Below are positions 14,401 to 63,336 of a stretch of 64,000 bases of DNA, piece by piece. The notes beneath the pieces were generated by a model. That model searched no databases, was not told the DNA's origin, and worked only from the letters and a program-made list of their open reading frames with translations. The stretch is from NCBI RefSeq assembly GCF_000003815.2, contig NC_049983.1, positions 23,514,516 to 23,578,515 of the forward strand, written 5' to 3'. The stretch is from Branchiostoma floridae (lineage: Eukaryota; Chordata; Leptocardii; Amphioxiformes; Branchiostomatidae). Both the position numbers and the translations under genes were made by a program. Numbering within the stretch: the stretch's first letter is position 1; the number at the start of each line of letters is the position of its first letter.

Positions 14401-17400
14401 CCCTCTGTAAAGTCCCCTAAATCCCTGCAAGAAAAGAAAAGATGACAAGATTAAAAAAAGACTGGTTAAGAAGATAAAATTCCTTCTTTTTCCCTTATCA
14501 TCATCAGTCCCATCTTGGGGTGATACCATTTCTTTTTGTTGGACGGGTCCAGAAAATAAAGACCTAAAAAAATTAGTGGACCAGATTTTAGAATGATTTG
14601 AAACTGAACAGATTATACCTGCAGGCGTTCAGGTGTTTTGGGGCTTACAGTTACAGGTCCAAGAAAATAACAAGAGTTTATAGTCATTGCTATGTTTCTT
14701 CAGTCAAAATTGGTCTTAGCTAGCAGTGGCAGTTAGTGTTGTTTACATGAATATGTATTGCTCATTCACAAGTTTTCACAGACAATCAGGTCCAGGTTCA
14801 GGTCAAAACCAGAACCTGATCCTCTGTAGTACCTGGACTGAACCCTTACCTGAATTTTCTGTACCAGTACCCACCCCTAGTCATATCCATTATCCTTACC
14901 TCCTGTGTGACAGTTCTCCTCAGCACACTGTAGCTGGAATGTCCTGGGTTGGCCTGGGCTCTCTGTTTCACCACCTCGACTGGTACTCTCACTATACAGG
15001 CTCCCTGGAACATAGAAGAGATGGCAAACAACATTAATAACATACTGGTTAAATAAGAGGAAAGTTCATGCAGTTGAATTGACCCAAAGTTTTGTCCATT
15101 TATCATCTATCAGAGGGATATGTCCCCAACTGAAGCCAGGTGCCCATTCTACACCTGAGTTAGTGAGGGGAGTCATGTTAAGTCCTCTTCCCAAGGGCAC
15201 AATGTTGGAGCATATCAGGGGACTAGAACCAAGGACTTCTGGGCTTTGAGTGAAACATCTTACTTGATAAGTATTGTAGAACAACATTGTGAATCTTTAC
15301 AGTGTAACCTGTAATTGCTTTTCAACCAAGCTGCAGAATACGAAAATAGGGCTGATGATGTTTGTCCATCGGAAGTCGCTGAGGACCTTGCTTGACTTCA
15401 GCTTCAGTTCAGTCTTGTGAGTCCGGGCGTGACTTATCAGTCTGATCCTTGCACGGAAGCACCGGCCGCAGACGTTGCACTGAAGACCAGGTGGTGGTTG
15501 TGTGGGTGGGTCTGCTTTCCATGCTTTACATGTCTCCCACCTGATGTCCAGGGCAGTTCTGTGTTGCTCATCAATGCTAGCACTCTAAAGGACTAAAGCT
15601 TTAGTTAATAGGTAAAAGCTCCTTGGTAAAAGTCTTCCAAAGCTGTACTCACCACTTCTCCTGCGGAAGCTCCTATCATGTGACTGACAGGTGCAAGGGA
15701 TTCTGGGAGGAGGCTTCCCGTCAGGCTTTTCACGAACTCGTAGGTGACAAAAAAGACAGCAGCTACGGAAACAGAGACAAACTGTTAATGCAGGGGCAAT
15801 AAAAAGTCATAGCACTCCTATAAACCTATTTTCACAAGGAATCATCAACTCCTTTGACTAAGCAATTTTTTTCTACATACACAAGAATCAAAACACTCAC
15901 TGTCATTCTTATGTATTACACTGCAGAGGATCACCCATATACAGATATTTGCTGTGGCCTTATATTATATATATATTTTGTTCCACACTGTAAATACGAG
16001 CAAAGCACGCTAGCCTGAGATCAAAATTAGATAGTAATCCTCATGGTGGTTGTAGATGTAGTGTGGTGGCCTGTTAATAGTACACTGGAATCAAGTAGCT
16101 AGAACCCTCATGATAAAGACCCTACATCACCAGAATAAGATATGCCTGATGAGAATAAATTACAAGACTCCCTACCTCCCGGCGCTGAGCCGACCGCAGC
16201 TGACCCCAGCCCAGAGTAGATACCCCGGAACCCTCCTGACCTCCAGAACCCAGCCTCGCTCTGAAGCCGTGTCTTCAGCGTGTCCAGGGGAAACAGGGTC
16301 ACATCCACCGCTGTTCCCGCCAGCCCTCCTGCCTGGAAATAATGTGTATACAGTCAAAGTCAAAGTCAAACCTGGCCAAAGCAACTACTAAGTACTAAGG
16401 GGACTATAGATAAAATGATAAGACTGTACAAGCATCTGGACCTCAAGAAGCCAGCTTCGTTCTGCAGCTGTGTCTTCAGAGTGTCAAGAGGAAACATTAT
16501 CAGTGTTTGCCACATTTTCCGCCAGCCATCCTGCCTGGAAATGATATGCATACAGTCAAACCTGGCCTTTAATAAGCAACCACTCAAGGGAGCTTCACTC
16601 TTCAGCTGTGTCTGTAACGTCAGGAGAGTTCGGGGGAAACATTGTCATGTCTATAGCTGTTCCTACAAGCCCTCCTACCTGGATATACCACAAATTGGCA
16701 CAATATGTAATTTGGATTTAAAAGGAGTTTCCAACATTGAAGAAGTTTAATTTCTATTCCAGAGGCCGGCTTCTTTCTATATTGTATCTTCAGCGTATCC
16801 AGGGGAAACAGGGACACATCCACAGCTGTTTCTGCCAGTCCTGCCTGGAAATTATGTTTTGATGACTTTGCATTGGTATTAACTGCACACAACAATACAT
16901 ATGTCATTATCCAAGAACCCTGGCATTTTCATTTGCACTGGCTATAAATGGTCTAACAGTCATACAGTCAAACCTGTCTATTGCGGCCACTCAAGGGACT
17001 GGTCAAAATTGGCCACTATAGAGAGGTGGCCACTATAGAGAATATGCTAATTAGTTGACCACAAGCAATAAGTTACACATGGTTATAGTACCCACTGATC
17101 TTTATTCACATAATACAGTACTGTACATGTACTGCAATGATTTTTGCATTATATGTATAAGAAAACAAAAGCTATAAAAAGTTTTGAGTGTTACTACAGT
17201 TCTTATTGCCTGAAGAGACCGGTATCGTCATATTTCTTTGATCTTTCGTCTTGTATCCTTTGATACTTCGCCGCCGCTCGCGTTCACACGTCAGATTCGC
17301 CCATTATGCTAATGTGGTACTCACAAGAAAAGTCTCGTCATTTTAGACTTATCTCTTAATAAATGTAAGAATAAAATCCACCATAGTCTGAAGTTCATAT

Positions 17401-18603: not shown

Positions 18604-18936
18604 GGCGCGTATATGAGCGGTCCAACGACTGAGAAACACCGGCCGACCGACCTCGAACCACGAGCAACTTTCTCTCCAACTTTCAGCTGACCTGAAGAAA
18701 ACAACTTCCGGGTGGAATGCAACATTTGGAATAAAAGGGGCGAGAATTTTTAAACAAAATGTATGATTAACGTTGTATCACAATATCTTAATTCGTCTTA
18801 ATATATATAATATCCATACATAATTTTAAGTGTTTTATTTTAGTAAAAATAAGGATTGCCAATGGCAATACTTGTTCTTTGAATTTTAAAAGCGACATCC
18901 CCTTTGAATGAATCGACTCGTCCCTTCAGGTCCAAG
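18604..18936. promoter_or_regulatory. Probable bidirectional promoter
   Basis: About 330 bp separates the SLC25A26 start (18603, minus) from the neighbour's start (18937, plus). There is no TATA box at a sensible distance. The plus-strand start sits in CCAAGATGGCCG, which resembles both a YY1 site and the TISU start element of short-leader mRNAs. The minus-strand start is GCCATGGCGG. Housekeeping divergent pairs often look like this. It was assigned by position and start context only. Confidence 0.5.
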
Positions 18937-21900
18937 ATGGCCGAAGTTGGGAGTTTGCAAGTCGACCACAGTTACAAACGGGTCGTAGAGAGCTGGTTTC
19001 CAGACTTATTCCGGAACGAACAACCAAAAGGCAAAGCTAGTGATGCAGGGGAAGCAAAAAGTGACGTTGGGAAGAATAGGAGCGAGACTGAGAGGTAAGA
19101 GAATGGCGTATTTGTGGACGCCGTTTGTGATTTTTTTTGGGAGGGGGGCGTGATGTGCGTACACGTGTGTACGAGTTTGTAAAGGTTTCCTGGCGCAAAA
19201 CTGAGAAAATTCAATTGCAATTTTTTAATGTATAGTTCTGTTCCTTGTCAAGTAAGGTTTGGGAAGACAACGGCAAATTAGAACTCTTAGTTAAAGTAAC
19301 ATGTTACGTTACATGTATTGCGCAATCAATAGGATCATTTCACTTCCTCCCTTCACCATGGGCAGCATCATTGGGTCCTTTACAGCTACAACCATCACCA
19401 CCGGGGGAAAAGACAAGGCACGAGGGGAAATCCTGACCATACTACAAGACATCACAAGTAATAACGTACCCACCACAGTCATCTTCACAGACGGCTCAGC
19501 CCTTGGAAACCCTGGGCCCACTGGTTGCGCCGCAGTTGTGTATGAAAACTGGGGATGCTCTGAGCCATACGCTGTACGCAAACCAGTAGCCAGCAAATCT
19601 AACAACTACGAAGGGGAACTTGAGGGACTACACCTAGCCATAGACACCATCACCAGAAGACCGACCACATCAAACAAGATACTCCTCCTCTGCGACTGCA
19701 AATCTGCGATTGAAACAGTGACAGGGGTGCAGCAAGTGGAAGCCTACAACAGCCTGATAAACACACTCAGAAGCAAACTCAGCATACTCAAATCTAAAGG
19801 CTACACCATACAGATCACCTGGTGCCCAGGACACATGGGAATTCCTGGTAACGAAATTGCAGACAAAGAAGCTAAGCTAGCAGCAGAGGAAGCAAGAAAC
19901 TGCCAGAACCACACATCCTGGACAAAACAACAAGCCATGAAACACATCGAGTCACAAGCACATGAGAGATGGAACAGAAGGACCAAGCTGAACACAAGAA
20001 GTGAACACATGCAGAAAATCGCCACCAACATGAAGAAGAAGGGACAAACACTGGGAAGAAGAAACACACAAGTCATCATCAACCAGCTGGTGAGCGGCCA
20101 CACCAGACTTAACTCCTATCAAAACTGGATGAACCCTGAAATCTCACCTAGCTGCGCAAACTGCGGTGCTGTGGAGACCACCAACCACTTCCTGTACCAC
20201 TGCCCTCGCTATGAAAAGGAGAGACAACACATGCTGCTAGAAGTGGAGAACATATTTGAGACATACAACACAGCAGGGGACAGCAGAGACACCGACATCA
20301 CCACGCTGGCTGGAATGAGAGAAGACCTGTCAGAAGGAATCAACAAACAGATGTACATGGCCTTCTCCCAGTACATTGAGAGTACACACCGTTTCGACGT
20401 ACTCTCCTAGAAACTCCTCCAATAACTCTCAAGCACAAGGAACCAAGAGTTAAATACCAAGAGAGACTATTGACTCTAAAGCAAGCCATGTGTTACTCAG
20501 CACCAAGAGACCACGTCTAGCGAAATAATAGACGTTAAATGAGGACAACAACAACAACAACAACAACAACAAATTTAAAAATTTCAAGAAATTCGATTCC
20601 TTGTAATAAGAATCTTGAGTGACCAGCGTTAACTCTTACAGAATGACAGCGCATATATGTAGTGTATTACATCTAAGATGCTCTTTTTATACCCCCTATA
20701 TATATTAAAGGGATTAATACATCATACACTCATCCCTTTAATTTTAAGTTTTAAAGTAAGACTCAGGAAGTTACATGTCAGCAAGATGCGGCATTCAGAA
20801 AAAAAGTTTCCTTTTTAAAATCACCTTGAAACGTCTTTAGTAGCGGACTGTCTTTAATTCCTTTGATCTCATCTCCTCAGTACCAGTTTAGAAAAGCCCT
20901 CCCTGAAATCTCAGGAGAAGAAGAAGCAATCCGTTCCCATGGCAACCAAGATCGGCAGTCTGGTGGAGGGGAAGATCCTCCCAAAGCTGAAGAAAAGACA
21001 TCAGCAGCAGCAGAACCAGCAGGGAGGTGCAGGATGTTTGTTTGCTTGTTTGTTTGTTTATTTTGTAAGATCATAGAGCATAACACACTCAAGGCATGAC
21101 ACACCAAATTTTGTACAGTGACAACATCCACAGGAAAACAAGCAGAAAGGTGGGGAGAATATTTGTTTGTTTGTTTGTTTATTTTCCATGATTAGACTAC
21201 AGAATAAGACATTCAAGGCATGACACACCAAATTTTTTATGTGTCAAAAGACAACAGGTGCAGGAAAACCAGAAGAAAGGTAGGTGAATGTTTGTATATC
21301 TTGCATAATCATAGAGCATAATATTGAGGCATTTGAGGCATGACACACCAAATTTGTACAGTGTCAAAATACAACAGGTGCAGCAGAACCAGCAGAAAGG
21401 TGGGGATAATGTTTGTTTGTTCGTATAACCATAGCATTCGTCAGTCTTGTACCAGTATCAAAGGCACTACTATAAGCTGCATAAGACCATACTACATTAT
21501 CTTAAAATTTGATGGACCCCATTTCTTATTTAAGTGTGGTGGGTTCTTTATCATGCTTGAGATGTCGCTTTGTCGATTTATTAGCATCGATTATGTCAGA
21601 AGAATTAAAACCATTTTTCTTTGCTATAGCAGTGTTGGGCAAAATGACTAGATATCAACTTGAACTTCTTTTGATAAATATTGCAAATATTAGATATCTG
21701 TTTCTTAAGATGAAATTCAAAAGGTCTTCATTGCTTCTTACTAATTCTTATCCAGGAAATCCTTGTAACAAAGTGCCCGCAGCTGACCCAGATGAAAGTG
21801 ACGACCAGGACAGTAAGCTGAAGTCACTGTCTCAGCAGAAACAACAAGTTAACACACAGCAGCAGCAGGGAGGACAGAAGATGTCCAGGAGTCAGGTCCG

Positions 21901-28337: not shown

Positions 28338-28630
28338 TCCAGGGAGTGTTATGTTCTAAAGTTGAAATTCTGTTCTAAGGTTCTGTTCTAACGTTCCATT
28401 TTAGTGTTCTGTTCCAGTGCTATGTTTTAATGTTGGAATTCTGTTCTAAGGTTCTGTTCTAACGTTCCGTTCTAGTGTTCTGTTTCAGTGTTATGTTCTA
28501 ATGTTGGAATTCTGTTCTAAGGTTCTGTTATAACGTTCCGTTCTAGTGTTCTGTTATAAAGTTGAAATTCTGTTCTAAGGTTCTTTCTAAAGTTCCGTTT
28601 TAGTGTTCTGTTCCAGTGTTCTGTTCTGAA
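28338..28630 (+). repeat. 13-bp minisatellite, locus 1
   Basis: A degenerate array of TTCTGTTCTAAYG and variants (TTCTGTTCTAAGG, TTCCATTTTAGTG, TTCTGTTCCAGTG), with a higher-order repeat of about 110-120 bp marked by GTTGGAATTCTG. The same 13-mer builds the array at 33356, next to an exon. Confidence 0.9.
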
Positions 28631-47100: not shown

Positions 47101-50100
47101 CCTTGTGGCCAACTGATCGTCAAGCTAAAGTTGTGATAACTTTCTCCAGCGAGTACAGCGACTACAGTAGCGGGAGCCGGTCGGGGTCCCGCGGGGGCCG
47201 GCGGAGGCGCCGCGGGAAGGACGGCAGGAGCCGCCGCAGCCGGTCCCGAGGAGGGCGCCGGCGGAGGAGGCGCGGCAGCGGCAGTAGTAAGTCTTCTGTT
47301 CTGCGAACGTTACCTTTTGTTAGTTCTACCAAACTCCGGATCGCTGGGAAACCGTAGAAATGGAACAAATAGAGGAATAAGCCGTGCGATCTTCCCTAGC
47401 CGGCTGTACTCCTCTGGCCGCTTACTCCTCTATTTGTTCCATTTCTACGTTTTTTTCCGCGACCCGGAGTCTGGTAGAGACTAACCTTTTGTATGTTAGT
47501 GCCAGGAATACAGTATTAAACTTGTAGCGTTCCTGTCAATTGATTAGTGATCTTGCCCCTGCAAACTACTAAGATGTACACATGTTGTCCTTTATAGTAG
47601 TACTATAAAGGACAACATGTGTACATCTTGAAATAGGAATCATTCTCGCATATTATCCTTTTACAGCAGTTTCCTGAGTGGAAGGGAACTGAAAAGATTT
47701 TGGTGTAACGTTACGTACTACGTAGAGGTCTTGGAAAATTTTGATGTCCATAAAAAGGTCTTGCTCATTATGACTGTGTAAAAGAGCATGAACCTTTAAA
47801 AAAATAGGCATCGCATGTCCAATATACAATTCAGCACCTTGGACATAACCTATTGAAATATCTGATAATGCGTAACGATGTGGATAATTGGTTTTAATCA
47901 AGTTTTGTTCACTTTTTCAGGTTATTCCAGCTCCTACTATAGTTCTAGGTAAGATTTTCCCGAAAATTTTTTAAATGAAGTTTTAAACGAAAATGACATT
48001 TTTTTTGTATTGTCGAAAATGGTGCTATTTTTCCCTTTGCCCAACTTTATAATAAAGGGAGGAATAACGATTTTGCTTGCAAGTTTCGCCATTTGCATTT
48101 GTCTTTATCCATTTAGAATAAAAATGTGTTATATTTTCTTTAATCCCGATCCAACTGTATCGTACGCGAAGGAATAACTATTTCGTTTCAAAGTTTGCCT
48201 TTAACTCTTCATGCAACTATTTTGGTAACGTGTGTTTTTCTTTTACTGATCACGAATCTTTTGTATATTCGTCCGCATTTTGTAGGGTCTGCTGCTACCA
48301 GCCCAAAGCTGCCTAGGCAGACCCATGTAAGGACTTGTCTCATCGTCATTAAAGTCAAAGTCAATTTCATATTCTTCTTTAATATTCTTAGTTCTTACGA
48401 GTCGACGGAGTATGACTCCGAGGGCCGAGCGTTGCCGAAGAAGAAGAAGGAAAAGCGTGACCGGCGCGGGCGGGGCCGGGGGCACGGGCGGGACCGGCAC
48501 GGCAGGCGGAGACGCAGCGTCAGTTCGGACAGCACCTCTATCAGCAGCGACTCCGAGTATGTTACATTTTACCTCTGTAGTAGGCTCAATAGAAAAAAAA
48601 TTGTTTTAATTTTAAGTTAAAACAGTCTATAATCATATGTTGTTAAACGGCACTTTCGTCGGCTGCGACACGGAGTACGTTACATTTTGCTAGCTTTATT
48701 CTGCACAGTAGGCCTTAAACATTGCACTTGCGACGTATTACTATACAACTAGTCATCATGGTACCTTAAGCATCGGCAAAAGCAAAAAAATGACTTTAAT
48801 GTCTTCGGTTACACAGTGTACGTTACATGTTACTTTTTTAGAAGAACTCAGTAGAAGGCTTAACTTTGAACTCGCGAGAAATAATCATGTAATCAAGATT
48901 GATTATCGAACAAAGCGTCGATGGCAACAAAATGTACTTTGCATTTTATTTCTTTTTGAAACTCAGTGTTAAGTTAAACATTTCGGTTTCAATATAACAA
49001 GCCCCGGGGCTCGTTTCACGATCTTACAAATGCAGCATCGTTGTCAAAGGAATACCCATCGTTTCCAATACCATAATATACTGACGATATTTGTCCTTCG
49101 CTACCGCATGAAGACCTTGACTATGTTAACGATAAACAGTAATGGGGATATAATTGACTTTTCCCCCGCTCCAGTACGACCATCAGTTCGGTGTTGAGCC
49201 TGGAGGACGAGGACGACCCGAACATTACCGAGGAGGAGCGCCAGGCCCGACGAGAGCGGAACCGAGCGAAGGTCGAGGCGCACGAGAAAAAGCGGGAAGA
49301 GAGGAAGGTGGCCCGGGAGAAGAGGCGGGAGGAGAAAAGAATAAGGTGAGATTTTAAGTAGGATTAACAAGGGATTAGTGTGCACACACATTGCTTACGT
49401 CGCCAAAGTATCAGTGTGCTCACGTGGTCAAAAGACAACAACATCCGACGTTGGTAGAGACTAGATGTATAGTATGGAAAATTTGCCTAATTTTAGAAAA
49501 CATATCTACTTGGTAATTCTATGCCAGACTTGCTTTCCCCTTCTTCTCTAATAGCTCCCTCCCTTACTCCCTTACTTCTTTTCTTTCATCCCTTCGTTCC
49601 CCTTCCTTTCTTTATCCCCCATTCGTTCCCTACATTCTTCAGTCCTTTGTTCCTTTCTTCCCCTTTAATTCATCCATCCATTAATCAATAAACTCCTTCC
49701 TCCATTCCTTCTTTCCTTCCTTCCCCCTCCCTTCCTTCCTGCCTTCCTTCCTTCCTTCTTTCCTCCCTCCCTCCCTCCCTTCCTTCCTTCATCCAACCAA
49801 CCATTCATTCCTTCATTCATCCATCCTTTCATCCATTCATCCATCATTAAATCCCCCTAACAGGAGAGAGGAGCAGAAGGAGAGAAGAGCAGACCGTAAT
49901 GAGAGGCGGAGACGTCGCGGGTCCTACTCCTCAGACGACAGCACGTGGGGCGACGGCAAGACGGCGGTCAAGTACGGCAAGGGCTCGCGGCGGGACGGCA
50001 AGATGCGGAAGGACGGCAGGGACATCGGATACGACGATCCGTAAGTATTTATCATTCGATATATTAATCGACATTCAATACATCAATCAATCTCCCGATC

Positions 50101-50239: not shown

Positions 50240-52448
50240 CAGTCATTCAATGGATCAGGAAGTATATTAACCTATATATTGAGTCGATGAGATATATCAA
50301 TGATTGACAAATTTATCAATATATGTTATTTCAGTTGATCGACCAATTATCTAAATTTATCAATCAACATGCTGCTTGTACAGAGCATCTTTGGGTCTGG
50401 AGTACGTTTCATTTTAGATACGTTACCGATACTTGTAATTGTAACGATGAATTCTTGTAGCGATAAAGCATTTTCTGTAACTTCCTTGATGTGTCAACGA
50501 TTGGCAAATTTATAATTATCGATGAATTTGTCATTGGATCCACCAAACACTGAGTATCTATGGTCTGAAGTACGTTTCATCTCAGATACGTTACTTAGAC
50601 TTGAAACGACGAACTCTGATCGTTTTTTTTTTCACTTCCTTCAGCAATGACCCGTGGAACAAGGGCAAGAAAGGAAAGAAGGGGAAGAAAGACAAGAAGC
50701 CGCGAGCAGACGGTACATACAGCTCCAGCTCGAGCGAGGAAACTGTCTATGACGAACATGGAAACAAAATGCGTACGTATTTCCAACAGCAAATTTAGCA
50801 ACTCTATTTGCACTATGCAATTCCTGTATTAGCTAGATAATCCTTTAAGTTAAGCTATAGAACTGTAGTTAATATGTAGATGCTTTACTTTGTACTTTGT
50901 ACAATTGTTGTTAAAAAAAATAAAGGTATTATTATTGTGATATCTTATTATGTCTTATTACTTATATGCAGATGAAATACGTTACTTCTACCCAGATCCT
51001 ATAAACCAAGTCTGTGCTAACATTTGCCATGAATAACATGCATTGTTTTATCGCCTATTCCAGCTAAGAAAAAGAAGGACAAGAAGAAGAAGAAGAGCGG
51101 CTGGTTTAGCAGCTCAAGCAGTACGTATAACCGTCAAAATCTTAAATGTTTGCATGATAACTTAGATTTAGAAACAGATTATGCTGTAAAATAGCTAGTA
51201 ACATTGTAAAAAAAAAGCAGTCACTTTGGACAGAATTTGCGATAACATTACAGAGTGGCTACATAGAAACGGATATTATTTACTTTAGTTTTAATGAAAT
51301 ATCTCCTTTTTGTGACATTTTGCTATACTTTCGATGTTTTAATCATGGTTTCTATAATTCCTTCCCTCTTACCAGGTGAAACAGAGACAGAAGAGTCTAT
51401 CTACGAGGAGAGGATAAGAGCGGACGGAACAATAGAAAAAGTTAAAGTGTAAGTTCTATCAATTAATGAATCAATCAATTTATTTATCAAGCAAGCAATA
51501 GCTCAATCAATCGCCAAGACACTAAACCAGGAAAATGTGAGAAACTGTAAAAGCCTTTACTCTATAAAGTATATATCTCTATACTTTGAATAAAGTTTGC
51601 AATGTAAAGGGAAGTGCTATAAATGTTGCCCTTGTTTATTATTTGCAGAGGAACAAAGAAAGTTAAAAAGAAGAAGGACAAGAAGTGGAAATACAGACAA
51701 AAGGTAGGATGCACAATAATCTGAAACTTTACAGATGATAAACATAATACTAATATTGAGTGAATGATTTTAATTGTGTATTTGTGTTTTTTTTAAATTA
51801 TCCATGTCTAATTCTGAAATCTTGGATTATATGTATTTATGAATTCTTATTCTATTTATTATATTCATTTATTTTTGTTTGATATTTCAGTCCGCAGATA
51901 CAGAGTACGACTCTGTCGGTAGTGCAGAGGCAGAGAAAATGGTGTTCCGGGAAGTCAGTAAGTATACTTCGTACTTATTCCTGGAAATTAAAAAGTACAC
52001 ACTCGTACCTGATAGAGAAGCTGCCTCTGTTTTTCCCAAAATGGCTGGTAGTCAATCCTACTCGCCTCTGATTTCTTAAAATTGCTGAACTTCAGGAAGA
52101 TTTGTATGACTGTAAACGTCAGAAGTGATGGAACCCTTACATTGTACAAAATCATCATCTAAATTACAAATAACTATATGATCACTGGACCTTATATATA
52201 TATATTACATAGATAATGGTATTAGGTGATTTATCCCCTATGATGGCTAATTTTATCCATATTCTCTCCTATAGTGGACGAGTTCGGCAACATCATCCGC
52301 CTGACCAAGTCCGGGCGGAGGATCAAAGACGGGAAGATCAGCAAGGAGCGGTACGACTGGGAAGGGAAGGCCAAGCGGCGCCGCGAGAGGATAGAGGCAG
52401 GGCTGGAGCCTAAACCGCCTTCACCGGAGGTAAGAATTCATATCTAAT

Positions 52449-52485
<37 letters not shown>

Positions 52486-55400
52486 GTACGACTGGGAAGG
52501 GAAGGCGAAGCGCCGCCGCGAGAGGATAGAGGCCGGGCTGGAGCCCAAACCGCCTTCACCTGAGGTAAGATCCGATACGCAATCAATCAATCAATTAATT
52601 AACCAATCAATCAATCGGTACGACTGGGAGGGGAAGGCCAAGCGGCGCCGCGAGAGGATAGAGGCCGGGCTGGAGCCTAAACCGCCTTCACCGGAGGTAA
52701 GATCCGATACGCAATCAATCAATCAATCAATTAATCAATCAATCAATCAATCAATCAATCGGTACGACTGGGAAGGGAAGGCCAAGCGACGCCGGAATAG
52801 GATAGAGGCCGGGCTGGAGCCCAAACCGCCTTCACCGGAGGGGATCCGATAGAATCCATCAATCGATCAGTCGGAGGTAAAACTATAATGCAGGTTTGCT
52901 GTTTTAAGTCACGTGACTTCAATTAGCCTCCGCCATGTTGGTTGATTAAAGACGCGTCAGCCACCAGATAGGATACATGTAGAGACCGAACTGGAGCCCA
53001 AACCGCCTTCACCAAGCCAAGGGCACAAGATCGGTGCAACATCAACGGATTCGAACCCAGAACCTCTGGGTTGTGAATCGAACACCCTGCCGATTGTGCC
53101 ACAGGCCGTTTGAAATCCCGTGACTGTGTCGGAACGCCCGCCATGTTGCTGGGTTAAATGCAGACAAAACAGCAAAAGAGAAAACAGAACTCTAGGAATT
53201 CATGTTTCGTTAAATATGGGTACTTCAATCCTGTGGTAAGAGGAAACACGTAACTACGTTTTTGAGGATGAAGCTGACATAGGATTATAACACAAGTCAT
53301 AGATATATATCACAATAGCGTGGATCTTATTTGGATGGGAAAGTACATACATAAACACAGAATATCAAACAACGCATAAACACAGGACACATCAGTCTCA
53401 CCAAGCTAATGAATACAGACCGTTGGTAATGTCAAAGTTGCTACCTGATCCCCTGGGCAAACATCGCGGAGGTTCTGTCAACTCGGGCGGTGCAAGGACG
53501 AGGGGACAATGGCGCTGGAGTCACATCGGATTAACCAGAAACAAGGGACAATGGATCCATTGGGAGTTAGATCACAAAAATGTGTGTGTAAAGAAAGAAA
53601 GTATAGAAACAGAAACCTAAATTCATTCAAGCATATAACCGTTATTTCAAATCGTAAAAAGCTATTAATCCATGTTTTCATGATATTCGCTGAAAATGAG
53701 ACACAAGGTTTCTGTTGAACCAAATGCATAGAGCAGAAAAATGTCACGAAAAATTACATTTCTAATATCAAAACATCTTTATATTCATTGAAAAATCTAC
53801 AATTTCAGACCAAAACGAAGGTCCCAAATTGGTACAGAAAGAACTGATTAACACAAATTGAGACCGCCAACAACCGACGCCTTCCACCATTGAAATCTGT
53901 CACTAACGATGATGAACGGCCTTCGACAGTGACTGTTACTTGTGGCTTTGAAGTTTTGACCTCATGAGAATACTGCAAAGGTCGGGGTGACAAAGAAAGT
54001 CTTTCCTACCCGTTTGGTCGCTTGGTTACCGGAGTATTTGGTTATTTACAGTTGTCGGAAGAAGACCTTACCGAGGGCGATCTTGAGCTTACATAACTAC
54101 TAGAGAAAAAAACTTCTGAATCAGTGGAATTGTAAATTTAGTTTTGCGACCGGATTGAAGACAGACATCTGTAGACAGTGTGGGAATCGCAACCGTTGAC
54201 CAGGTTTGGGGACAAGTACATGGATATCGACAGTGGCAAGTAAATTCCTGTTCCAGGACCAATGAAGTGTTGTAATGACTCCAAGGTCGTCATGTTGAAT
54301 CGGAAGTGATCACGCGATGCGGACAAGTTTACCCACCAAGCTCACGACCGGTATCAACAAACAAACAACGGCGGCGGCTTGACGAGGAACTGTTCCAACC
54401 GCAGAAACGTCAGTGTTTGGAATATTCTCGTGTTGAGAACACCGAGTTTGATCTAGGAACCAGGGACAAGCTACACAACGACAGTATTCGTGTGGACCTC
54501 TTCTAGCTGCCAAAAAAGCTTTAGTTGTGACTCTTTTTAAAAGAATTGATAACATCGAGTTTGAATCATTTAAGTTTCACGAACAGTGCCGAGAAGCAAC
54601 TTCGGTACTTGCGAGGAAATTGGTGACTTTTTTAACCAAGAAACTGTCAGACTATTGACTATTCGTCGCGTCCGGACTTGGTGACTTGCTGACTTTGTGA
54701 CTTTTCCAACCAAGTAACCGTCAGACTATATTCTTGCACAAGAAGTCTAAGACGGTCGCGTCCAGACTTGGTGACTTTACCAACTAAGGAATCGTCAGAC
54801 TGTTCTTGCACAAGAAGTATAAGACGGTCGCGTCCAGACTGGGTGACCGCCAGACCATTGAACATTCTTAATCTTGTACAAGAAGTATAAGAAGTTCTCG
54901 TCGAGACATTAAGAGAGATTGCACGATGTTGAGTCGGCGGGGAATCTGGAGACGGCGGATGAAGGAACACCCGCTGTTCCCCAGCAGCCGGGTGACCACG
55001 CTGGAGGACCTGATGGGCGGGCTGCTGCAGAAGGCGAGGTACGCGCCGGTCGGGAAGGCGACGTGTGGCCGCGCTGTGGTACAACGGCGGGACAGCACTG
55101 CGGATGTGGGTGATGAAAGGAATATGGGTGATGCTTAAGTACTAAAACAACCCTAAAAAGAAGTAAATATCGTGCTAACTATCGTAAATATTTACATAGC
55201 ATCCATTATATTGTTTCCTCTTCCTAAAATAGCATAAACGTGAACATGGTTAAGACGTGCCGTTGCGCTGCGGAACAACGGAGCGACAGCACCGCGGATG
55301 TTGGTGATTAAAGGATTATGCATGGTGCTATGGCTAAAAGTACCAAAACAACCCTAATCAGAGGCAAATTATGTGCTAGATATTATAGTAGCTTGCATCA

Positions 55401-56220
55401 ACGTTCACTATCATGAACGTTATCATATCATAACGAAGGCGAGGGACGCGCCGGTCGGGAAGGCGACGTGTGGACGCGCTGTGGTACAACGGAGGGTTAG
55501 CACCGCGGATGTGGGTGGTGAAAGGAATATGCATGGTGCTATAGCTAAAAGTACTAAAACAAACCTAATCAGAAGAAAATTCTGTGCTTTATATTGTAAA
55601 TATTGTAGCATCCATATATTGCTTCCCCTTCCTAAAGTAGCATAAACGTGAACACGGGTAAGACGTGCGGTCGCGCTGTGGAACAACGGTGGGACAGCAC
55701 CGCGAATGTGGGTGGTGAAAAGATTTGGGATGATGAAGTTTTTGTGTTACATACATACCCTTGTCTTAAGCTGTACATAATATAAGTATTGTGTGTCTTT
55801 TAAAACACACGAACATGACTAAAATGATTTGGTCAGTTAAGTTTGGCTATATCCATTTTAATCTCAAATTAAAATTTTTATACAACGACAGAAGTCTAGT
55901 GTCTGGTAAATATTACGTTTTGATGTTTTCTACCATCCATGCTACTGTCACGGTGGTAGGTGTTTTGCCGAGACTGCTACTACTATGTTCAAGACAAATG
56001 TAAACTATTCTATTTCTTGCAGCACACAAAATAGAAAAGTACATTGATGTTGACGGACGCGTTTTATCTCTTGTAGTACGAGGAAGAGGAGATAGTGGAG
56101 GAGTACATAGATGAGGAGGGGAACGTGGTCCGGACGGTCAGGAAGGTTCTCAAGAGGAAGCCCGGAACCGGCCCGCCTGGCAGGGAGGAGGAGCCTCGTG
56201 AGTCGAGTTTTAATTTGTAA
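32191..56220 (+). CDS. Large Arg/Gly/Ser-rich basic protein (24 exons), unrecognised
   Basis: Exons: 32191-32326, 33715-33836, 39565-39696, 40083-40154, 40441-40609, 41031-41125, 41521-41662, 42485-42626, 43023-43741, 44620-44782, 45334-45451, 45955-46091, 47150-47286, 47921-47948, 48392-48556, 49175-49345, 49864-50040, 50645-50772, 51064-51120, 51376-51448, 51649-51703, 51891-51957, 52275-52429 and 56077-56197. All phases agree, about 1,160 aa. The N-terminus (about 250 aa) is mixed and partly ordered (YIRVGGGFRHSYWYCKLIIQ). The middle is RGS-rich; exon 16 is a charged coiled-coil-like helix. A degenerate motif [YH]D-x-x-G-[NKR] recurs across exons. Exon 24 either splices on (GTGAGT, phase 1) or reads eight codons to TAA at 56218. 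I recognise no family. An RNA- or scaffold-binding role is guessed from composition only. Confidence 0.75.
33356..33706 (+). repeat. 13-bp minisatellite abutting the exon 2 acceptor, locus 2
   Basis: Units TTCTGTTCTAATG, TTCTGTTCTAGCG and TTCTGTACTTATA alternate as a 39-bp higher-order repeat. The last unit runs into TATGTCCCGCAG, the acceptor of exon 2 at 33715, so the array supplies the pyrimidine tract. The same 13-mer forms the array at 28338. Confidence 0.9.
33445..33488 (+). pseudogene. Diverged copy of the 5' half of exon 2
   Basis: After an AAGGCAG acceptor-like end it reads (G)LSAKDLDEEVIRA in the exon frame, against GLGGEALAEEVLRA in real exon 2 (33715 onward). It stops inside the minisatellite with no good donor (next is GTTCTG). 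Similarity is clearer in protein than DNA, so it is old or was once used. Confidence 0.7.
33837..39564 (+). other. 5.7-kb intron 2 of the Arg-rich gene
   Basis: No exon was found. It holds a (GTTT)n run at 33847-33885, a poly-C run near 34740-34751 and a diverged direct duplication. That duplication pairs 37711-37790 with 37957-38040 (shared: GGTRTCAAACGCC, TCGAAA, GTCGAAAACAAC, GAAAYCATT). Confidence 0.6.
41740..41978. mobile_element. Inverted-repeat element with hammerhead-like core
   Basis: The ends TAAGAGACTCTTTTTACACA and GCGTAAAAAGAGTCTCTTTA are inverted, as are CCAGTGCTTTATTCTCACCG / CGGTGAGAATAAAGCACTGG just inside. It looks like two partial copies head to head. The minus strand of the left half (41818-41776) carries CTGAAGA, a GGTGAC/GTCACC stem, then GAAAC-GTC. 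It lies in intron 7 of the Arg-rich gene. Related copies are at 46170 and 13588. Confidence 0.75.
42395..42470 (+). repeat. Probable retrotransposon 3' tail
   Basis: TTTGTACCTTGTACAGTTG followed by CAATAAAGTTATTATCAT closely resembles 50888-50940 (TTTGTACTTTGTACAATTG, then AATAAAGGTATTATTATTG). Such AATAAA plus ATT-repeat ends are typical of LINE or SINE 3' termini. It sits just before exon 8. Confidence 0.45.
43783..44570. repeat. Nested inverted repeats in intron 9
   Basis: AAAGTCCGCATCTCC (43784) is mirrored by GGAGATGCGGACTTT (near 44000). Separately, AATAGCCTCCATG...ATTGCCGT (44360-44397) is mirrored by ACGGCAATG...ATGGAGGCTATT (44515-44562). These are probably two foldback elements. 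Confidence 0.55.
46165..46423. mobile_element. Inverted-repeat element with hammerhead-like core, second copy
   Basis: It begins CTGAATAAAGAGACTATTTT and ends AAAATAGTCTCTTTATTCAG, perfect inverted ends. Near the right end, plus strand 46340-46382, it has TTGCC-CCGAAGA, stem GGTGAC/GTCATC, GAAAC-GTC, GGTGA. The interior shares GGTTCACATTGTAC and GCGGTCACAAAACG with the 41740 copy. It lies in intron 12, between a duplicated exon 12 donor (46091 and 46430). Confidence 0.8.
47333..47470. repeat. ~138-bp inverted repeat
   Basis: CGTAGAAATGGAACAAATAG with flanks at 47353-47381 is the reverse complement of 47420-47449, and the outer parts match with mismatches to 47470. It lies just past exon 13 and is a small foldback element. 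Confidence 0.85.
47571..47629. repeat. Perfect 59-bp palindrome
   Basis: Two 29-bp arms with no mismatch flank a single central G (47600). The left arm begins AAGATGTACACATGTTGTCC and the right arm ends GGACAACATGTGTACATCTT. It is intronic between exons 13 and 14. Confidence 0.95.
48280..48350 (+). repeat. Dispersed ~70-bp repeat, copy 2
   Basis: It matches 371-441 with about four substitutions and the same orientation. It lies 42 nt upstream of exon 15 of the Arg-rich gene. Confidence 0.8.
48540..48850 (+). repeat. Exon 15 end and donor, repeated about three times
   Basis: Exon 15 ends GACTCCGAGTATGTTACATT with the donor at 48557. Echoes: GACACGGAGTACGTTACATT at 48667-48686 and CACAGTGTACGTTACATGTT near 48811-48832, each followed by an AGTAGG/AGTAGAAGG block. 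The period is about 115-150 bp. Confidence 0.75.
49560..49860 (+). repeat. 300-bp pyrimidine-rich tract before exon 17
   Basis: Nearly all C/T on the plus strand, built from CCTT, CCCT and TTCATCCA units, running to the CTAACAG acceptor at 49863. It is an outsized polypyrimidine tract and a potential triplex-forming sequence. Confidence 0.9.
50090..50360 (+). repeat. (AATC)n microsatellite with an exon 17 echo
   Basis: AATC repeats fill much of intron 17. At 50176-50198 GGGTACGAGGATCCATGCGT copies the exon 17 end and donor region GGATACGACGATCCGTAAGT (50029-50046). Confidence 0.7.
52349..53013 (+). repeat. Exon 23 3' half plus donor, four to five tandem copies
   Basis: The exon segment beginning CGGTACGACTGGGA recurs at 52349 (real), 52484, 52616 and 52760. 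Each is about 82 bp and separated by (AATC)n, and copies 1-3 end in GAGGTAAGA. Copy 4 lost the donor, and a fifth fragment lies at 52980-53013 (GAACTGGAGCCCAAACCGCC). Copies 2-4 have no AG acceptor, so only copy 1 can be exonic. Near-identity implies recent expansion. Confidence 0.95.
52955..53115 (-). repeat. tRNA-derived SINE, reverse orientation
   Basis: The minus strand reads CTGTGGCACAATCGGCAGGG, then GGTTCTGGGTTCGAATCCGT (a clear B box GGTTCGAATCC) and CTTGTGCCCTTGGCTTGG. It is fused at one end to the fifth exon 23 echo. Confidence 0.75.
53120..54600. other. No exon seen in this part of intron 23
   Basis: Only short ORFs without domain or splice support. The intron continues to exon 24 at 56077. 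Confidence 0.6.
54655..54900 (+). repeat. ~75-bp tandem repeat, three units
   Basis: Each unit has GTCGCGTCCAGACTTGGTGA, an ACCAA block, CGTCAGAC and TTGCACAAGAAGTATAAGA. The units sit directly upstream of a candidate exon (54934-55038). Confidence 0.85.
54934..55038 (+). CDS. Candidate extra exon of the Arg-rich gene
   Basis: Exons 23 and 24 join at phase 0, so an optional phase 0-0 exon is possible. This 105-bp stretch is open in the needed frame and ends GAG|GTACGCG. It encodes 35 residues beginning SAGNLETADEGTP and rich in Gly/Pro/Glu. The acceptor (TTGAG at 54933, or AGAG at 54915) has a poor pyrimidine tract. In its favour, the following tandem repeat starts at the supposed junction, as at other real exon ends in this window. 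Confidence 0.35.
55027..55735 (+). repeat. Alternating dimeric tandem repeat (~205 / ~406 bp)
   Basis: Type A units at about 55027 and 55433 contain GCGCCGGTCGGGAAGGCGAC. Type B units at about 55255 and 55663 have AAGACGTGC then GCTG(C/T)GGAACAACGG. All four share an (A)CAACGG...AGCACCGCGGATG-like core. The A-to-A spacing is about 406 bp, so the array is a duplicated dimer. Confidence 0.85.
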
Positions 56221-56470: not shown

Positions 56471-56700
56471 CAAATCTAAACAGTAGGGAGGAGCTATACA
56501 AAAATTAAGAAATGGGATAGATCAAATTTAAAGAGGAGGGGTTCATTCTTCCTTTTGGTAGTTCACAGTTAAATCAAAGATAGGCAACTTTTGTTAAACT
56601 TATCTCCAAGGAAATTCAGTTCAAGAGTGCCTTAATCAACATTCCAAGGACCCAGTCATGTACGGCACCAGCCGACCTCCTGTCCGCCCCTCCCATTAGT

Positions 56701-56802
56701 CCATTGTCTGTCCAAAAGCCGTGAATCACGACTGACAGCAACAGAACGTAACCATTGTCTGTCTCGAGGCCGTAAATCACGACTGATAGCAACAGAACGT
56801 AA
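56701..56802 (+). repeat. 51-bp tandem duplication
   Basis: CCATTGTCTGTC...CAACAGAACGTAA occurs twice head to tail, with about five differences. Confidence 0.9.
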
Positions 56803-56809
56803 CCCTTTT

Positions 56810-58113
56810 GTCTTGACGTCACGTCGGTCAACAAGATGATTGATGTCCGTACGAAATGGGGTCATCCAAGGCTATCTACTGGGCTGTGCTATTTTAAGAG
56901 AACAGAGTATCGGTTGATTTTTGTCATAGAATGAATCTTCCGAATAAAACTGAATGTTCCAAAAAATTCTATTGCCAAATCGTTTTTGGAAATACTTTTC
57001 TTCTGCAGGGGAATAGGAGTTCCCAAGATTTGTACCATATCTCTGTTCTTAGTCAAAGGAAAATGACTAATTTCTTCATGCACATGCCAGCAGATACCAT
57101 TGCTATAACTTCAGCAAATGGAGGATAAAATTAGTCGAAACCATTCACCCCTCAGCTTATATTTGAAAAATGAGGGAACATTCTACCCGCGATCTGGCAT
57201 GTGAAGATATTTACTGCTGGCAAACAAATACTGACAGCGACATTCATTTCCCCATTACGTGCCCTCCATTAAAGCTAAAAAAAGCCTGTCATGTAGATCA
57301 ATATGATGACGTCACTATCACGAGCATTTAAACTGTCAAAGAAGTACACTAATCATCACAATCATTTGGCTGTATTGCACGAATGATACGAAACCGCTTT
57401 AAGATTAGTATGTTTTGTGCGTGTTACCTAGACACGGTGAGCTTTGTGTCTATTTCTGCACAATAATTCCAATCAAGCACCGAGTAAAAGAGTTATTGAA
57501 GAGTCTAGACACAAAACACATAAAAGAAATGGGGAGAAATAAATCTCTAACATTGACAACAACAAAAGACACTCCGACAATTACTGTTAAAGGCTGTGTA
57601 ACTATAACCTGTCCCAGATGACGCAAACGAGGAAGTGATTAATGCTTAACCATCTATCTTTCATTATTCAACTCACATGAAAAATTATACTAACCTAACA
57701 ACGTTTGGAACGGCCCATTTATGAGATATAAACACAGCAAAAACAGTCTTTAATGATATCTTAATATGCATATGTTACAATTTGAAAATGTGAAAAATAG
57801 TAATGAGATACCCCTTGCTTCAAAAGTATTCAACGGTCTTTAATCTATTAAGAGTGTTGCCTTTTTAGATTCTTGGTACCCGTAATATTCTTCAAATGGT
57901 ACCACCTAGTCATCTTTACAATGCACTTAGAAACCAAGATCGTTATGACACAATCAAACGCATAGATGCCATTCTACCATACGGCTTTAGCGAGCAAGTT
58001 CAAATGAACACACAGCGGGCTCTTTGCAGAGCTTTCCTCCCCTGATAGCCAAACCTTGACATCGAGTTTCCTGTGATAGTTTTTATCGTGTGTGTGTGGA
58101 TAAGTATAAGTAG
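56810..58113. other. Stretch between the Arg-rich and EF-hand coding blocks
   Basis: No convincing exon. If the two blocks are one gene, a small exon entering at phase 1 and leaving at phase 0 should lie here or between 56198 and 56810. None was identified. Confidence 0.5.
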
Positions 58114-58119
58114 TCAAAC

Positions 58120-61100
58120 ATGTTGAAGAATCTGAGGAATCGCAATTTTAAGTCTGTCGCCACCGTTATCAAACTAGTGACGGGTCTGCGGAGGGTGAAC
58201 CAGATCTTCCGGAAGGGCGGGGAGAAGATGCTGCAGCGGCTGAAGAACCTCATCGCGGCCTGCGAGCTGGACGACGACATGTTCCTCACCGACATAGACG
58301 AGAGGGGTAAGAGATAGATATTCATTCTTAGTAACGTTTTATATACCTATACATATTCAGTAGTACAACTCAACCTCGCACGTTTATTCTTAATTAATGA
58401 CAAACCAATGCAAACGAAAAGTACTGAATAGGCCAGCTATGACACCTTTACAGGTTTGCATTAGTGAGAAACTCAAAATACTACTTCATGTATCACCACC
58501 CTATCAATAGTACCTTGCCTCGCCTTTTTCTATTGACATCCTTCTTTTCATGCTACTGATAGTAAAATGAGAAGATACAGAAAAAGATAAGCAGACAGGT
58601 GTGTATCTATTTGTAAATTGTAAGGCACTAAGTATATTCATTTAAGATAGAGAGGGTCGTTGTAGCAACATAGGCAAGTAGCAGTGATCCATATGATTTA
58701 TGAATGAACCAAACTGAGAAAGCCATATCATCCTGCTAGATATTTGAGAACAATCATGCTAACGTCTACCATCTTTTGCACCTCCCCAGACTCCTCCATA
58801 GACTTCCTGTCCCATTACCACCTGATCGCCGGCCACAAGCTGGAGGGGTACGCCAAGGCCTTCATCGTGGAGGATCTAGATGAGGACAACATCTTGAACT
58901 TACAGGTAGGGCTGTAGTCCAGTACTTATTGCCTTCAGCATTGGAAGTAACCTATGGTGAAATCTAATGTTATAGACAAGGCCTTCATTGTGAAAGATCT
59001 GAACGAGAATTACGTCTTCAATCTTTATATATGTCTCTAATTTCTAGCAAACTATCACTTTCTCGCCAATGTAAGCTTCTAAAAACACCGTAGCTAGGTT
59101 GTTTACACTTTCTTTCGGTACACTAGATTAGTTTTCTATGTGTGTTGCTCAAAATATACCCTGTCCAGTCAAACGAATAAATTCAACCATGGATGCTATT
59201 ATCTAATCTGACAAGAGTCCATGGCCAAAACAGTCATCTTTACTGTGGACTTAAGTTGCATATAAAAGTGAACAGAATTAAAAGTATGGACAAAGCCCAC
59301 GTGATGTTACTGAAAGTTCCTCCTTTGTCTTTGTTGACTTCATCCTTGGTACTCACCATGATTTGGCATTCTATACTCTACATCAGATTCTGCACTTGTT
59401 TGCTCAATATTTGAAGCCACAGATAATGGCGTTTGACACCGGCACTTAGCCTATTAAGTGCAGCCAGGTGTGATTATTTGAGTCAAACGTTTCTCTGAAA
59501 AGCAGTATTCACATCTCTGACATACTCTCTAAATGCCTGTGAATATTTAAGTACCCTGAAAATAGAAGCCTTTTACTTGTCGTTCTGATCGTATCACTCA
59601 CACCTGGTGTTTTTGTCTCCCTTTTCAGGAAACTCGGATCGCCCTGGAGGGTATCCAGAGCATCACAAACGTCTCCAGAAAACAAACGGACTACGTTCTC
59701 AGGGTAAGATGAACAACTGTTCCAACATTTTCTCCAAAGTATCAACTATGTCGCCATAGATACAAAACAAAACAAAACATATGTTTTAGACTAGAAATTA
59801 ATACAGTGTCAAAATTCATGCATGTAAATTGTTCTCAAGGAAAGCTTCGAAGTATTACAATGTCGCCTGTATATGAGAAGAAACAACGAACTATGGAAAT
59901 CAAGACATTAACATCAACCCCATCGCATAATTTATGCAAGCAACTCATTTTCAGAATCACTCAAGATTCATTAGGCTGTATCTGACGTTACCTAATATTA
60001 CCCTCACCCAAATCATGACGTCATTTCCCTTTCCGCCCACCAGGTTCTCGGTATAGACGACTCCACTCACGTGACCTTTAGGATGTTCGCAGTCATCGCG
60101 GCCCTGTGTGAGCGGATGTGTACATTAGAGTAAGTCATTATCAAATTCAGTAGATGCTGTTATATTAATGAAGCTAGAACATCTTTAAAAAAATACACAT
60201 ACTAACAATCAAACAGAATCATTTGAATGAACCACGATATATGGCGCTTACGATGTAAAGCAAACACGTAGCAATTTCAGGTTGTCTACGTCATGTTAGA
60301 GGGACGTACACATTTGTGCAGATGGTTGATATATTGGATAAGTGTACGATGGCTGGCAAAACATGTAACTAACATTTTTCTTGCATTTTCTTACAGTTAC
60401 AAGGAAAAATACTGGATGGAGCTGACAAACCTGATGGACATTGAGAGGAAAATGGCGCTCTACAAGGTACTGAAACGCCGTCTACCGACCAACCGCTACT
60501 TTTGCTATTTATTTTAACCTCGAGAACATCTGTCTTTCTGTTCTGGCTCCTGATATTTAGGCATTGGCATTACAAATAGCAAGGGAACAGGAAACTGTCT
60601 ACAGTGAAATGACTGATTCTCTATATACATAGTTTATTGTTTGATTCTTTTGTGCCATGAAGAGAGAAAGAATGACAGAGTACTTTTAGAAAGAAAAGAT
60701 TTCGTGTCCTTCCCAATCTTACATGACTAGAGCCTAGAGTACCAATTCCATTGTTGTCCACTGGCTGGTTCCTTTGATACAAAACTAATTGCTTCATTGA
60801 CTCTTTTATGCCAGGATGAGAGAAAGTGTGACGGAAAGTATCTTTAGAAAGAAAGATTTCGTGTAGAGTCCAATTTCTTGTCTTTCCAAATAAATTCTTA
60901 CATGAATAGAGTGACTTACCAGTTCCATTGTCGTCCCCTCCAGGCGATGTTCTACTGCAACGTGAACTCTGACCGCAGTGCGAACTACATCAAGGCGGAC
61001 TCGCTGCGGATCGAACTCATCGCAGGGGGTCTGAACCGGTACCAGGAGGAGTACATCATGTCCAGGATACAGATCAACGAGTACAGAGAGGTAAACTTTG

Positions 61101-63336
61101 TCCGATTTGTATCTCGTTAGCAACTATGGGATCTCAACGTTTAGTCCTTGACTTCGTCGACCCAAACTTCTAGGTAGCAAGAGTGATACAGTATGTCCAG
61201 GATAAAAGTCAATGAGTACAGAGAGGTAAAGTTATAAATTTTTTTGTTGGTAAGAAATAGCCTTTGTGGACATCAAAAAGCCAGATATTAATCTCATTAG
61301 CAACAGTGAGATCTCAATGTTTAGTCTTTGACTGCGGTTTTTCGACCTGGAAGGAGAGGGTGGACTTGGTCCGGGAAAGCAGCCCGCGATGATGATGATT
61401 TTCGACCCAACATTTAATGTAGCAAGAGTGATGCGGCATGTCTGGGATAAAGATCAAAGAGTAAAAAGAGGCACTTCACTTGTTGAGTGATCATGAGTAG
61501 CAACAATGCTCTTGAACCTGTATTCTGATGGGCACATAGCTGTTCGACTTGCAATCCCTCGAAGCTGTGACTAATTAAGACTTTATTTTAGCTGTTGGTC
61601 CTGTGTTCACGTTGGAAGAGAACCGTACCTTCAGTTCAGTTCAGTCATCTATTTTCTGGTGACACTATGAAATCCCTCCAGACGGTTCTGTCTCGCATGA
61701 CAGACAGGAGGTACGTACGTACGTACCTTCAGCAAGTTTTTTAAAAACCCAAGACAACATGTAAGTGTAGGACGAGGCAATCTTGGTTGCAGTGATGTTA
61801 AATGACATGTTCATTTTTTTATCATGACCAGGTGTCTTTCTTGGACTACATGGCATACATCCCGTTGTTCCTGTCCATGCACGAGAAGATCTGCGACAAC
61901 CCGCTGGACAACTCGCGGAACAAGTACGCCATGCGGGTCGGCTCGCCCGTCATGCGGGACCAGATGCCGCTGGGGCTGCCGCTCAGACTGGCCGCCGCCT
62001 CCATGAAACCGTTCAAGGTACGTGTCAGCACCTCATTGAGTGATCTTATTCTGTCTCGAGAGTATGGTTTCTATATCAAACATTGAATGACTTGCCATAT
62101 GGCGTTCAATCTGCTACGTCTACGTTTCGACAGAAGCTTCTCATGTATACAAATCAGTCAATTTTATTGGAATTTAGATATAACTTGTGATGACTTTTAT
62201 GTAGTTTGTATGTTTCAAAATAAAGATTTAGAGATAAACATTCCTTTCTTTAAAGCAGCTGTAATTTTATCGGTATTGCAATGTCGACCTCTTTCTTCAA
62301 TGTCAACAAAAGCGACAGAAACGAGAATTATCTTAAGAATGATATTGTCAAGGCTACACATTGTAAACTGAAGTTATGCCATTAAGACTATTACTGTTTC
62401 TCGGGCATCTTTGGAGGTGGTACAGGATAACATGACAGTGAATAACGCCCCCTGCTTTTACCCCCAGGTACCGCAGGAGATTCTAGACGAAGTGGAGGCT
62501 CTGTCGACGCTAGACACGCTGAAGAACGCCCCCAATATGGTGCGCCTGCGCGCGCTGAAGATGAAGCAGCGCGGCATGACCAAGAGCACCAGCACCACCA
62601 GTCTGGAGAAGTGGAACGCTGACGCCACGCACAACATGGCCAACAAGTACGTATTGATGTCTTCATATCCGCACAGGAAGGAACAGATCAGGGACATGGT
62701 GTGTGTATGTTTGTCTGCAAGAGTGAGTTGTGTATGTGTAAGTGTGCGAGGCATGACCAAGAGCACCAGCACCACCAGTCTGGAGAAGTGGAACGCTGAC
62801 GCCACGCACAACATGGCCAACAAGTATGGAACGGTTAATCTTTCTCCGTCTAGCAAGGAACAGATCGTGATCATGGAATCTTTGTGTGTGTGTGTGTGCT
62901 TGTCTGTGTCTGCATGAGTGAGTTTGTGTATGTGTAAGTAAAAGTAAACAAACATGTCGTCACAATCCAGTATAGTAACCCAAAACGTACGGGTGGCTCC
63001 TTGAGCCTTGTTTTGTGGTGAACCATAAGTATATGAAAACGTGTATATGTGTCTGTATGAGACACTGTGTGTGTGTGTGTGCGTGCGCTTTTGCTACTGT
63101 GTGTGTACATGTGAGGTTGTATTAGCTAAGCTTCTCAATATTTTCTGAAGTTATTTACTACCAAAAATGTATTTTACTTAAGAATAGCTAATCTTCTTAG
63201 TTGTATCTTGTCTCTAATTGCGTACAGATAATGTTTATTCCTCGTGATATATTCTAAAGAACATTCGTGATACTGATCATAAAACTTATGTCCCTTCTAC
63301 AGCATTGCAACGCTTATTGGTGGAGTGAACCAATGA
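58120..63336 (+). CDS. EF-hand-like protein, or the C-terminal part of the preceding gene
   Basis: Exons: 58120-58306, 58790-58905, 59629-59703, 60044-60129, 60397-60466, 60944-61090, 61832-62017, 62468-62646 and 63303-63336. Phases are consistent: 359 aa, stop TGA at 63334. Residues 1-60 are basic and helical. A canonical EF-hand loop lies at 91-102 (D-x-D-x-D-x-I-x-N-x-x-E), preceded by a helix ending AFIVE. Further degenerate EF-like segments lie near 127-150 (IDDSTHVTFRMF), 184-197 (NSDRSANYIKAD) and 225-245 (VSFLDYMAYIPLF), so the fold is probably a calmodulin-like pair of lobes, mostly not calcium-binding. The start is uncertain: the only acceptor in phase is weak (AAGTAG at 58113) and needs phase 0, while exon 24 of the upstream gene leaves phase 1. 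No named family is recognised. Confidence 0.75.
58978..59028 (+). pseudogene. Echo of exon 2 3' half (EF-hand gene)
   Basis: AAGGCCTTCATTGTGAAAGA and the following 30 nt mirror exon 2 positions 58855-58905 (AAGGCCTTCATCGTGGAGGA). The frame stays open (KAFIVKDLNENYVFNLY), but there is no donor or acceptor. The substitutions break the EF-hand acidic residues. Confidence 0.8.
60647..60930 (+). repeat. ~155-bp tandem duplication upstream of exon 6
   Basis: Segments starting CTTTTGTGCCATGAAGAGAG (about 60648) and CTCTTTTATGCCAGGATGAG (about 60801) share AGAAAGAAA, AGATTTCGTGT, CTTACATGA, TAGAG and CCATTGT(T/C)GTCC in order. The second copy runs into the real acceptor. Confidence 0.8.
61058..61475 (+). 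repeat. Exon 6 end and donor, three copies
   Basis: The real exon end ATGTCCAGGATACAGATCAA...GTACAGAGAGGTAAA (61058-61094) is echoed at 61193-61230 (ATGTCCAGGATAAAAGTCAA) and 61438-61473 (ATGTCTGGGATAAAGATCAA). Intervening sequence (TTAGCAAC, GATCTCAA, GTTTAGTC, GACCCAA, TAGCAAGAGTGAT) is repeated as well. Confidence 0.9.
62574..62828 (+). repeat. Exon 8 3' half and donor, duplicated
   Basis: GGCATGACCAAGAGCACCAG through ATGGCCAACAAGTA (62574-62649) recurs at 62750-62826 with perfect coding identity by eye. The flanking CGCACAGGAAGGAACAGATC is echoed as TAGCAAGGAACAGATC. Copy 2 retains a weaker donor (GTATGG). This is a very recent duplication. Confidence 0.95.

Follow-up and report, generated by a model that had tools for sequence, protein, structure and literature searches.

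The closest described counterparts of the repeats reported here are the amphioxus 'mirages', minisatellite-like repeats across exon-intron boundaries that have been found in Adh3, in the globin genes BflGb6 and BflGb9, and in troponin C (PMC3087553, PMC3902484). Similar repeats are present in PGBD5, in a paper that itself cites the globins, Adh and troponin C (PMC3902484). In the sections of these papers drawn on here, mirages copy either exon boundary, vary in length between haplotypes, and have units of 10-72 base pairs (bp) in Adh3 and of 150-160 and 157 bp in the globins (PMC3087553); lengths of 60 and 108 bp are also given (PMC3087553, PMC3902484). The globin authors considered in 2010 that the phenomenon is possibly general, and their paper names the Rogers model, in which introns are gained through tandem duplication (PMC3087553). 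Here we describe copies of exon ends ('echoes') in the adjacent introns of a 64-kilobase (kb) stretch of contig C5 of Branchiostoma floridae, the whole of which is referred to as the window. These echoes are further instances of mirages, a link that the initial annotation of the window had drawn and that holds. Probably they are left by a continuing, largely untargeted process of local tandem duplication, as harmless intronic copies.

Echoes were defined by a single rule, applied uniformly to window and control junctions: a local score of at least 30 and an alignment that crosses the junction. By this rule, 11 of the 82 window junctions (8 donors and 3 acceptors) have an echo in the adjacent intron. 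The control set consists of 13 genes of the same genome (513.4 megabases, 431 contigs), namely 8 mitochondrial-carrier loci and 5 chaperonin loci; these were not selected for echoes, having been chosen on compactness and matched-exon number before their sequence was seen. Of their 126 junctions, 7 carry echoes, distributed over 4 of the 13 genes. Pooled, 18 of 208 junctions carry an echo (12 of 104 donors and 6 of 104 acceptors), which is approximately one in twelve, or 9%.

The echoes are thus not peculiar to the window, and any enrichment there is modest at most. The difference between window and controls gives p = 0.075, and the special density across four neighbouring genes that the initial annotation had seen is not established, since control genes have echoes too. 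Local direct duplications, found in the window by self-comparison (the strongest junctions were also read directly), lead to the same view: 15 clusters are present in the window and 15 in the control loci, which total 70.6 kb, while 20 random 10-kb stretches of the genome (200 kb) contain 29, and such duplications make up 7.5% of the bases in the random stretches. The aligned echo copies are 11% diverged on average (1912 of 2152 bases alike) and range in age from near-identical to barely recognizable, as first noted from the sequence; this range fits a continuing process.

The most striking control is a carrier locus, L029, in which an exon end with a CAG/GTA donor leads into an array of 17 aligned echoes, with units of approximately 40 bp. 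Within 5745-6612 of L029 (G000:C171, minus strand), this exon end is itself the first unit of the donor minisatellite. The family match has an in-frame TAG in that exon and a TGA occurs in the next match, so that the locus may represent a broken gene or a haplotig. Among the 63 control exons, 61 were placed by Pfam match and splice scores, and the remaining two, both in L029 and both with an in-frame stop in their family match, took their limits from the span of that match. For the final echo count, an exon end in L029 and another in L031 were corrected from the sequence; in the sidedness and cluster-placement tests described below, these junctions stand approximately 3 and 10 bases off.

The position of the echoes relative to their exons points to the way in which they arose. 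Tandem duplication predicts that a donor echo lies downstream of its exon and an acceptor echo upstream. Among 104 exons, with junction-spanning matches counted at a score of at least 28, there are 12 downstream matches to donors and 6 upstream matches to acceptors. Matches upstream of donors, downstream of acceptors, in inverted orientation or in reversed sequence number 0 in each class. This sidedness favours tandem duplication and disfavours dispersal. Copying of exon ends by insertion, via RNA or transposons, could account for echoes that lie hundreds of bases from their exon, one of them past a palindromic element, yet it should not respect sidedness in this way; with no spanning case among the 104 exons, dispersed or inverted copying was ruled against, and we find it scarcely credible.

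In the mechanism that we favour, local tandem duplication of segments of mostly 25-220 bp would act throughout the genome, largely without regard to target. Where the duplicated unit chanced to include a splice junction, the copy contiguous with the exon body would continue to function. The other copy would be left stranded in the intron, carrying a second splice site, and would lie downstream of the exon in donor cases and upstream in acceptor cases. The stranded copy would then decay or multiply further into a minisatellite. That the exon-joined unit is the working copy is a consequence of this geometry and adds no separate evidence. The copies may have been made by slippage, unequal exchange or end-joining, and are probably neutral and ignored by splicing.

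The window exon models were built from open frames and splice scores. The SLC25A26 model is the only one supported by a family match (mitochondrial carrier, Pfam); for the Lys-rich, Arg-rich and EF-labelled ('EF-hand') genes, open frames and splice scores are the sole basis. No Pfam match was obtained for the Lys-rich model, nor for the EF-labelled model at E 0.1 (the latter, the only model searched against PDB, had no match there either), and for the Arg-rich model, of which 317 residues were searched, Pfam gave a single match, below the cut-off. The 82 junctions include two first-coding-exon starts that are not acceptors (18937 and 32188), several weakly scored sites, and donor 50783, which was placed 11 bases too far; the nearer donor site, 50772, has no echo. 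The echo cases in the window are as follows.

16176-16900, minus strand: SLC25A26 exon 2 (16176-16332) and three partial copies upstream, on the acceptor side (approximately 16440-16560, 16605-16690 and 16784-16857).
20915-21434, plus strand: Lys-rich exon 2 (20915-21026, donor 21026) and three donor copies downstream, in units of approximately 120 bp (GT at 21150, 21280 and 21400).
33388-33998, plus strand: Arg-rich exon 33715-33836, with an acceptor-side copy upstream (33388-33484, in a minisatellite) and a donor copy downstream (33974-33998).
45955-46442, plus strand: Arg-rich exon 45955-46091, with a donor copy of 22 bases (46421-46442) on the far side of a palindromic element.
48392-48688, plus strand: Arg-rich exon 48392-48556, with a donor copy of 30 bases (48659-48688).
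52275-52869, plus strand: Arg-rich exon 52275-52429 and three copies downstream, of the last 81 bases with the donor.
54620-55735, plus strand: EF-labelled exon 54883-55038 (weak acceptor model), with an upstream acceptor-side array of approximately 74-bp period and, downstream, donor-side copies in which the donor is broken.
58790-59025, plus strand: EF-labelled exon 58790-58905 and an exon-side copy (58977-59025).
60944-61471, plus strand: EF-labelled exon 60944-61090, followed by one donor copy that keeps GT (61173-61233; GT at 61226) and one that has lost it (61402-61471).
62468-62939, plus strand: EF-labelled exon 62468-62646 and one copy downstream (62746-62939), which takes in the last 78 bases and the donor.

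Of these, SLC25A26 exon 2, Lys-rich exon 2, the Arg-rich exon ending at 52429 and the EF-labelled exons ending at 55038, 61090 and 62646 are strong and can be read directly. The Arg-rich exon among them is the clearest, its copies being spaced 132-144 bp apart with CAAT runs between the units. Weaker copies follow donors 33836 (22 of 26 bases alike), 46091 (21 of 22) and 48556 (25 of 30), and each of these exceeds 300 Markov-shuffled introns. The acceptor-side copy of exon 33715 (73 of 98 bases alike) is largely minisatellite, and the exon-side copy of the exon ending at 58905 (37 of 49) ends 4 bases before the junction. Donor 50040 has a weak echo, partly AATC microsatellite (p = 0.007 when the arm is 60 bases long and 0.056 when it is 25). 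In the shuffled-intron test as a whole, which used 300 Markov-shuffled introns for each junction, 18 tests have p < 0.02, the alignment crossing the junction in 13 of these and not in 5; some 80 tests were made, without correction, so that one or two would be expected by chance.

The claim that exon ends recur in the adjacent introns is therefore borne out, by the junction count, by strong cases that can be read directly and by the shuffled introns. Ten of the eleven exons originally listed, which were named without coordinates, are matched to likely echoes, the remaining one ('Arg-rich exon 24') being without a counterpart in our exon model. The copies had been described as usually comprising the 3' end of an exon with its 5' splice site; in SLC25A26 exon 2 it is the 5' part of the exon and its acceptor that are copied, as a mirror image of the donor cases.

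Near-identical copies raise the question of misassembly, in which two haplotypes joined head-to-tail would mimic tandem copies. The exon sides are alike at 77 of 78 bases for exon 62646 and at 79 of 81 for one copy of exon 52429. Amphioxus haplotypes differ by a few per cent, and the average divergence of the echoes lies above this. In addition, arrays reach 17 further units (in L029), and published mirages were cloned or resequenced in the accounts drawn on (PMC3087553, PMC3902484). We judge misassembly to be a very unlikely source of the echoes. On the intron side, the copies of exon 62646 agree at only 80 of 94 positions, with 25 gap columns; this contrast with the exon side is odd for one neutral duplication. 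An open frame (62372-62914, 181 codons) spans both copies of this exon end.

Several observations weigh against a process that is both untargeted and without consequence, and the first concerns junctions themselves. When each gene-associated cluster was placed at random within its own gene (clusters also matching elsewhere in the sample being kept), 8.05 junction-spanning clusters were expected among the 26 of the window and control genes together, and 13 were seen (p = 0.019), so that some preference is possible. A process tied to splicing or transcription, involving for example breaks or stalled forks at exon edges, would favour duplication at exon-intron junctions and could produce such an excess, to which the window contributes 7 of 12 clusters against 4.17 expected (p = 0.066). 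In the control genes alone, however, the figures are 6 of 14 against 3.88 (p = 0.13). Duplicated bases near exons are sparser than in deeper intron in the control genes and similar to it in the window: intron within 50 bases of an exon has 5.3% in the controls and 6.4% in the window, as compared to 7.7% and 5.7% in deeper intron (exon edges have 3.1% and 7.1%, and exon interiors 0% and 9.4%, respectively). At a score of at least 46, 7 of 82 window junctions have a match versus 45 of 470 intron points, some of these points lying inside echoes. There is no strong junction preference in these data, and targeting is weak once clusters are placed at random; the frequencies of junction-spanning and other intronic duplication in this sample lean towards little or no targeting. 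The initial annotation had suggested a process that favours junctions, for which the support is weak. We consider a junction-tied process unlikely, and retain untargeted duplication as the probable explanation.

The second such observation is the retention of splice dinucleotides. GT or AG is kept in 43 of the 46 echoes that align across the junction, the only copies counted here (30 of 32 donor and 13 of 14 acceptor), 17 of the 46 being from L029. Averaged over the 18 junctions, so that the L029 array weighs once, retention of the splice dinucleotide in echoes is 0.92, as compared to 0.735 for other dinucleotides in the same alignments. No gap of this kind is seen at pseudo-junctions, taken from duplications that lie away from exons (0.785 versus 0.778, 804 sites), and the gap in echoes gives p = 0.022 against these pseudo-junctions and p = 0.009 in a Wilcoxon test. 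The excess goes beyond what pure neutrality predicts; coming from a small sample and from one of several tests, it is a lead.

Selection that keeps echo splice sites as backup or alternative sites would explain this retention, and also the donors of the Lys-rich exon 2 echoes, which score 9.1, 10.0 and 9.1 when the authentic donor scores 4.3. On the other hand, the gap is smaller when the same dinucleotide is followed elsewhere in the echo alignments (kept in 101 of 125). GT has been lost from the third copy of exon 52429 (the other two keep GTAAG, with GT at 52565 and 52698), from a copy of donor 55038 (9 exon bases followed by a broken donor, GG) and from a copy of donor 61090. In the published account, as far as drawn on here, reverse transcription PCR suggested that splicing is undisturbed by mirages (PMC3087553). 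Such selection is, in our estimation, quite unlikely. The same applies to a wider proposal, that of a reserve of spare splice sites, in which duplication would add donors and acceptors, selection would keep their GT or AG, and the backups would feed new exons and introns.

The third observation is that echoes match their source about equally well on the exon side (identity 0.881) and on the intron side (0.903); a separate tally gives 126 mismatches in 1034 bases and 125 in 946, respectively. A constrained exon copy should raise likeness on the exon side, which is not what is seen. This similarity also led us to reject a 'conservation lens', in which old duplications would be easier to see at exons through the constrained copy.

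With respect to unit length, an ungapped period scan at offsets of 20-400 gave base periods for 45 non-repeat clusters: 17 at 20-80 bp, 4 at 80-120, 17 at 120-180, 5 at 180-240 and 2 above. A BLAST list with a reach of 1500 bp, holding 42 non-repeat clusters, has 2 at 220-300 bp, none at 300-600 and 3 at 600-1000. Simulated duplications of 80-900 bp were detected in at least 0.75 of 12 trials each, at up to 12% divergence per copy, and the drop above 220 bp is therefore unlikely to be a detection effect. A preferred unit of 120-180 bp, near the nucleosome repeat, is a companion to the idea of a splice-site reserve, and the two taken jointly appear improbable.

Other repeats and open frames were observed in the sample. 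The palindromic element beside the exon ending at 46091 (46168-46420, between that exon and its 22-base echo) is similar to a miniature inverted-repeat transposable element, measures approximately 250-290 bp and has a second copy in opposite orientation at 41731-42001. Minisatellites at 28345-28627 and 33362-33703, 5 kb apart, have closely similar units based on TGTTCTGTTCTAA. Two random stretches (L016, 9015-9578, and L025, 1276-1839) have a 152-bp tandem unit, and each matches another place in the sample; the unit may be repeated within a single dispersed element. A 371-codon open frame (19295-20407) inside the first Lys-rich intron bears some likeness to the RNase H end of retroelements. 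A 1150-codon open frame at 6881-10330 has coding repeats approximately 0.9 and 2 kb apart.

If about 9% of junctions have a copy alongside, amphioxus is well suited to observing the way in which tandem duplication may feed alternative splicing and intron gain, and annotation of its genes must expect decoy splice sites. Among the titles listed by our full-text literature searches, none concerns a genome-wide count of mirages, although their coverage is limited, with most subscription papers outside it, and this is no proof of absence. To the published record we add a tally over genes that were not picked for mirages, the test of sidedness and an initial test for a preference for junctions; the tally supports the generality of mirages and weakens the case for junction targeting.

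The echoes resemble published mirages in that the 3' end of an exon with its donor, or the 5' end with its acceptor, is repeated in tandem across the exon-intron boundary into the adjacent intron; in that donor-side and acceptor-side cases both occur; and in that many copies keep AG or GT, with unit lengths overlapping those described. They differ in that the count here pools several neighbouring genes with unrelated control genes, and in that most arrays have few, diverged units. With the Rogers model of intron gain they share the covering of splice signals by local tandem duplication. In that model, however, duplication of a proto-splice site creates a new intron, whereas in the cases described here an existing junction is spanned and no new intron position is apparent.

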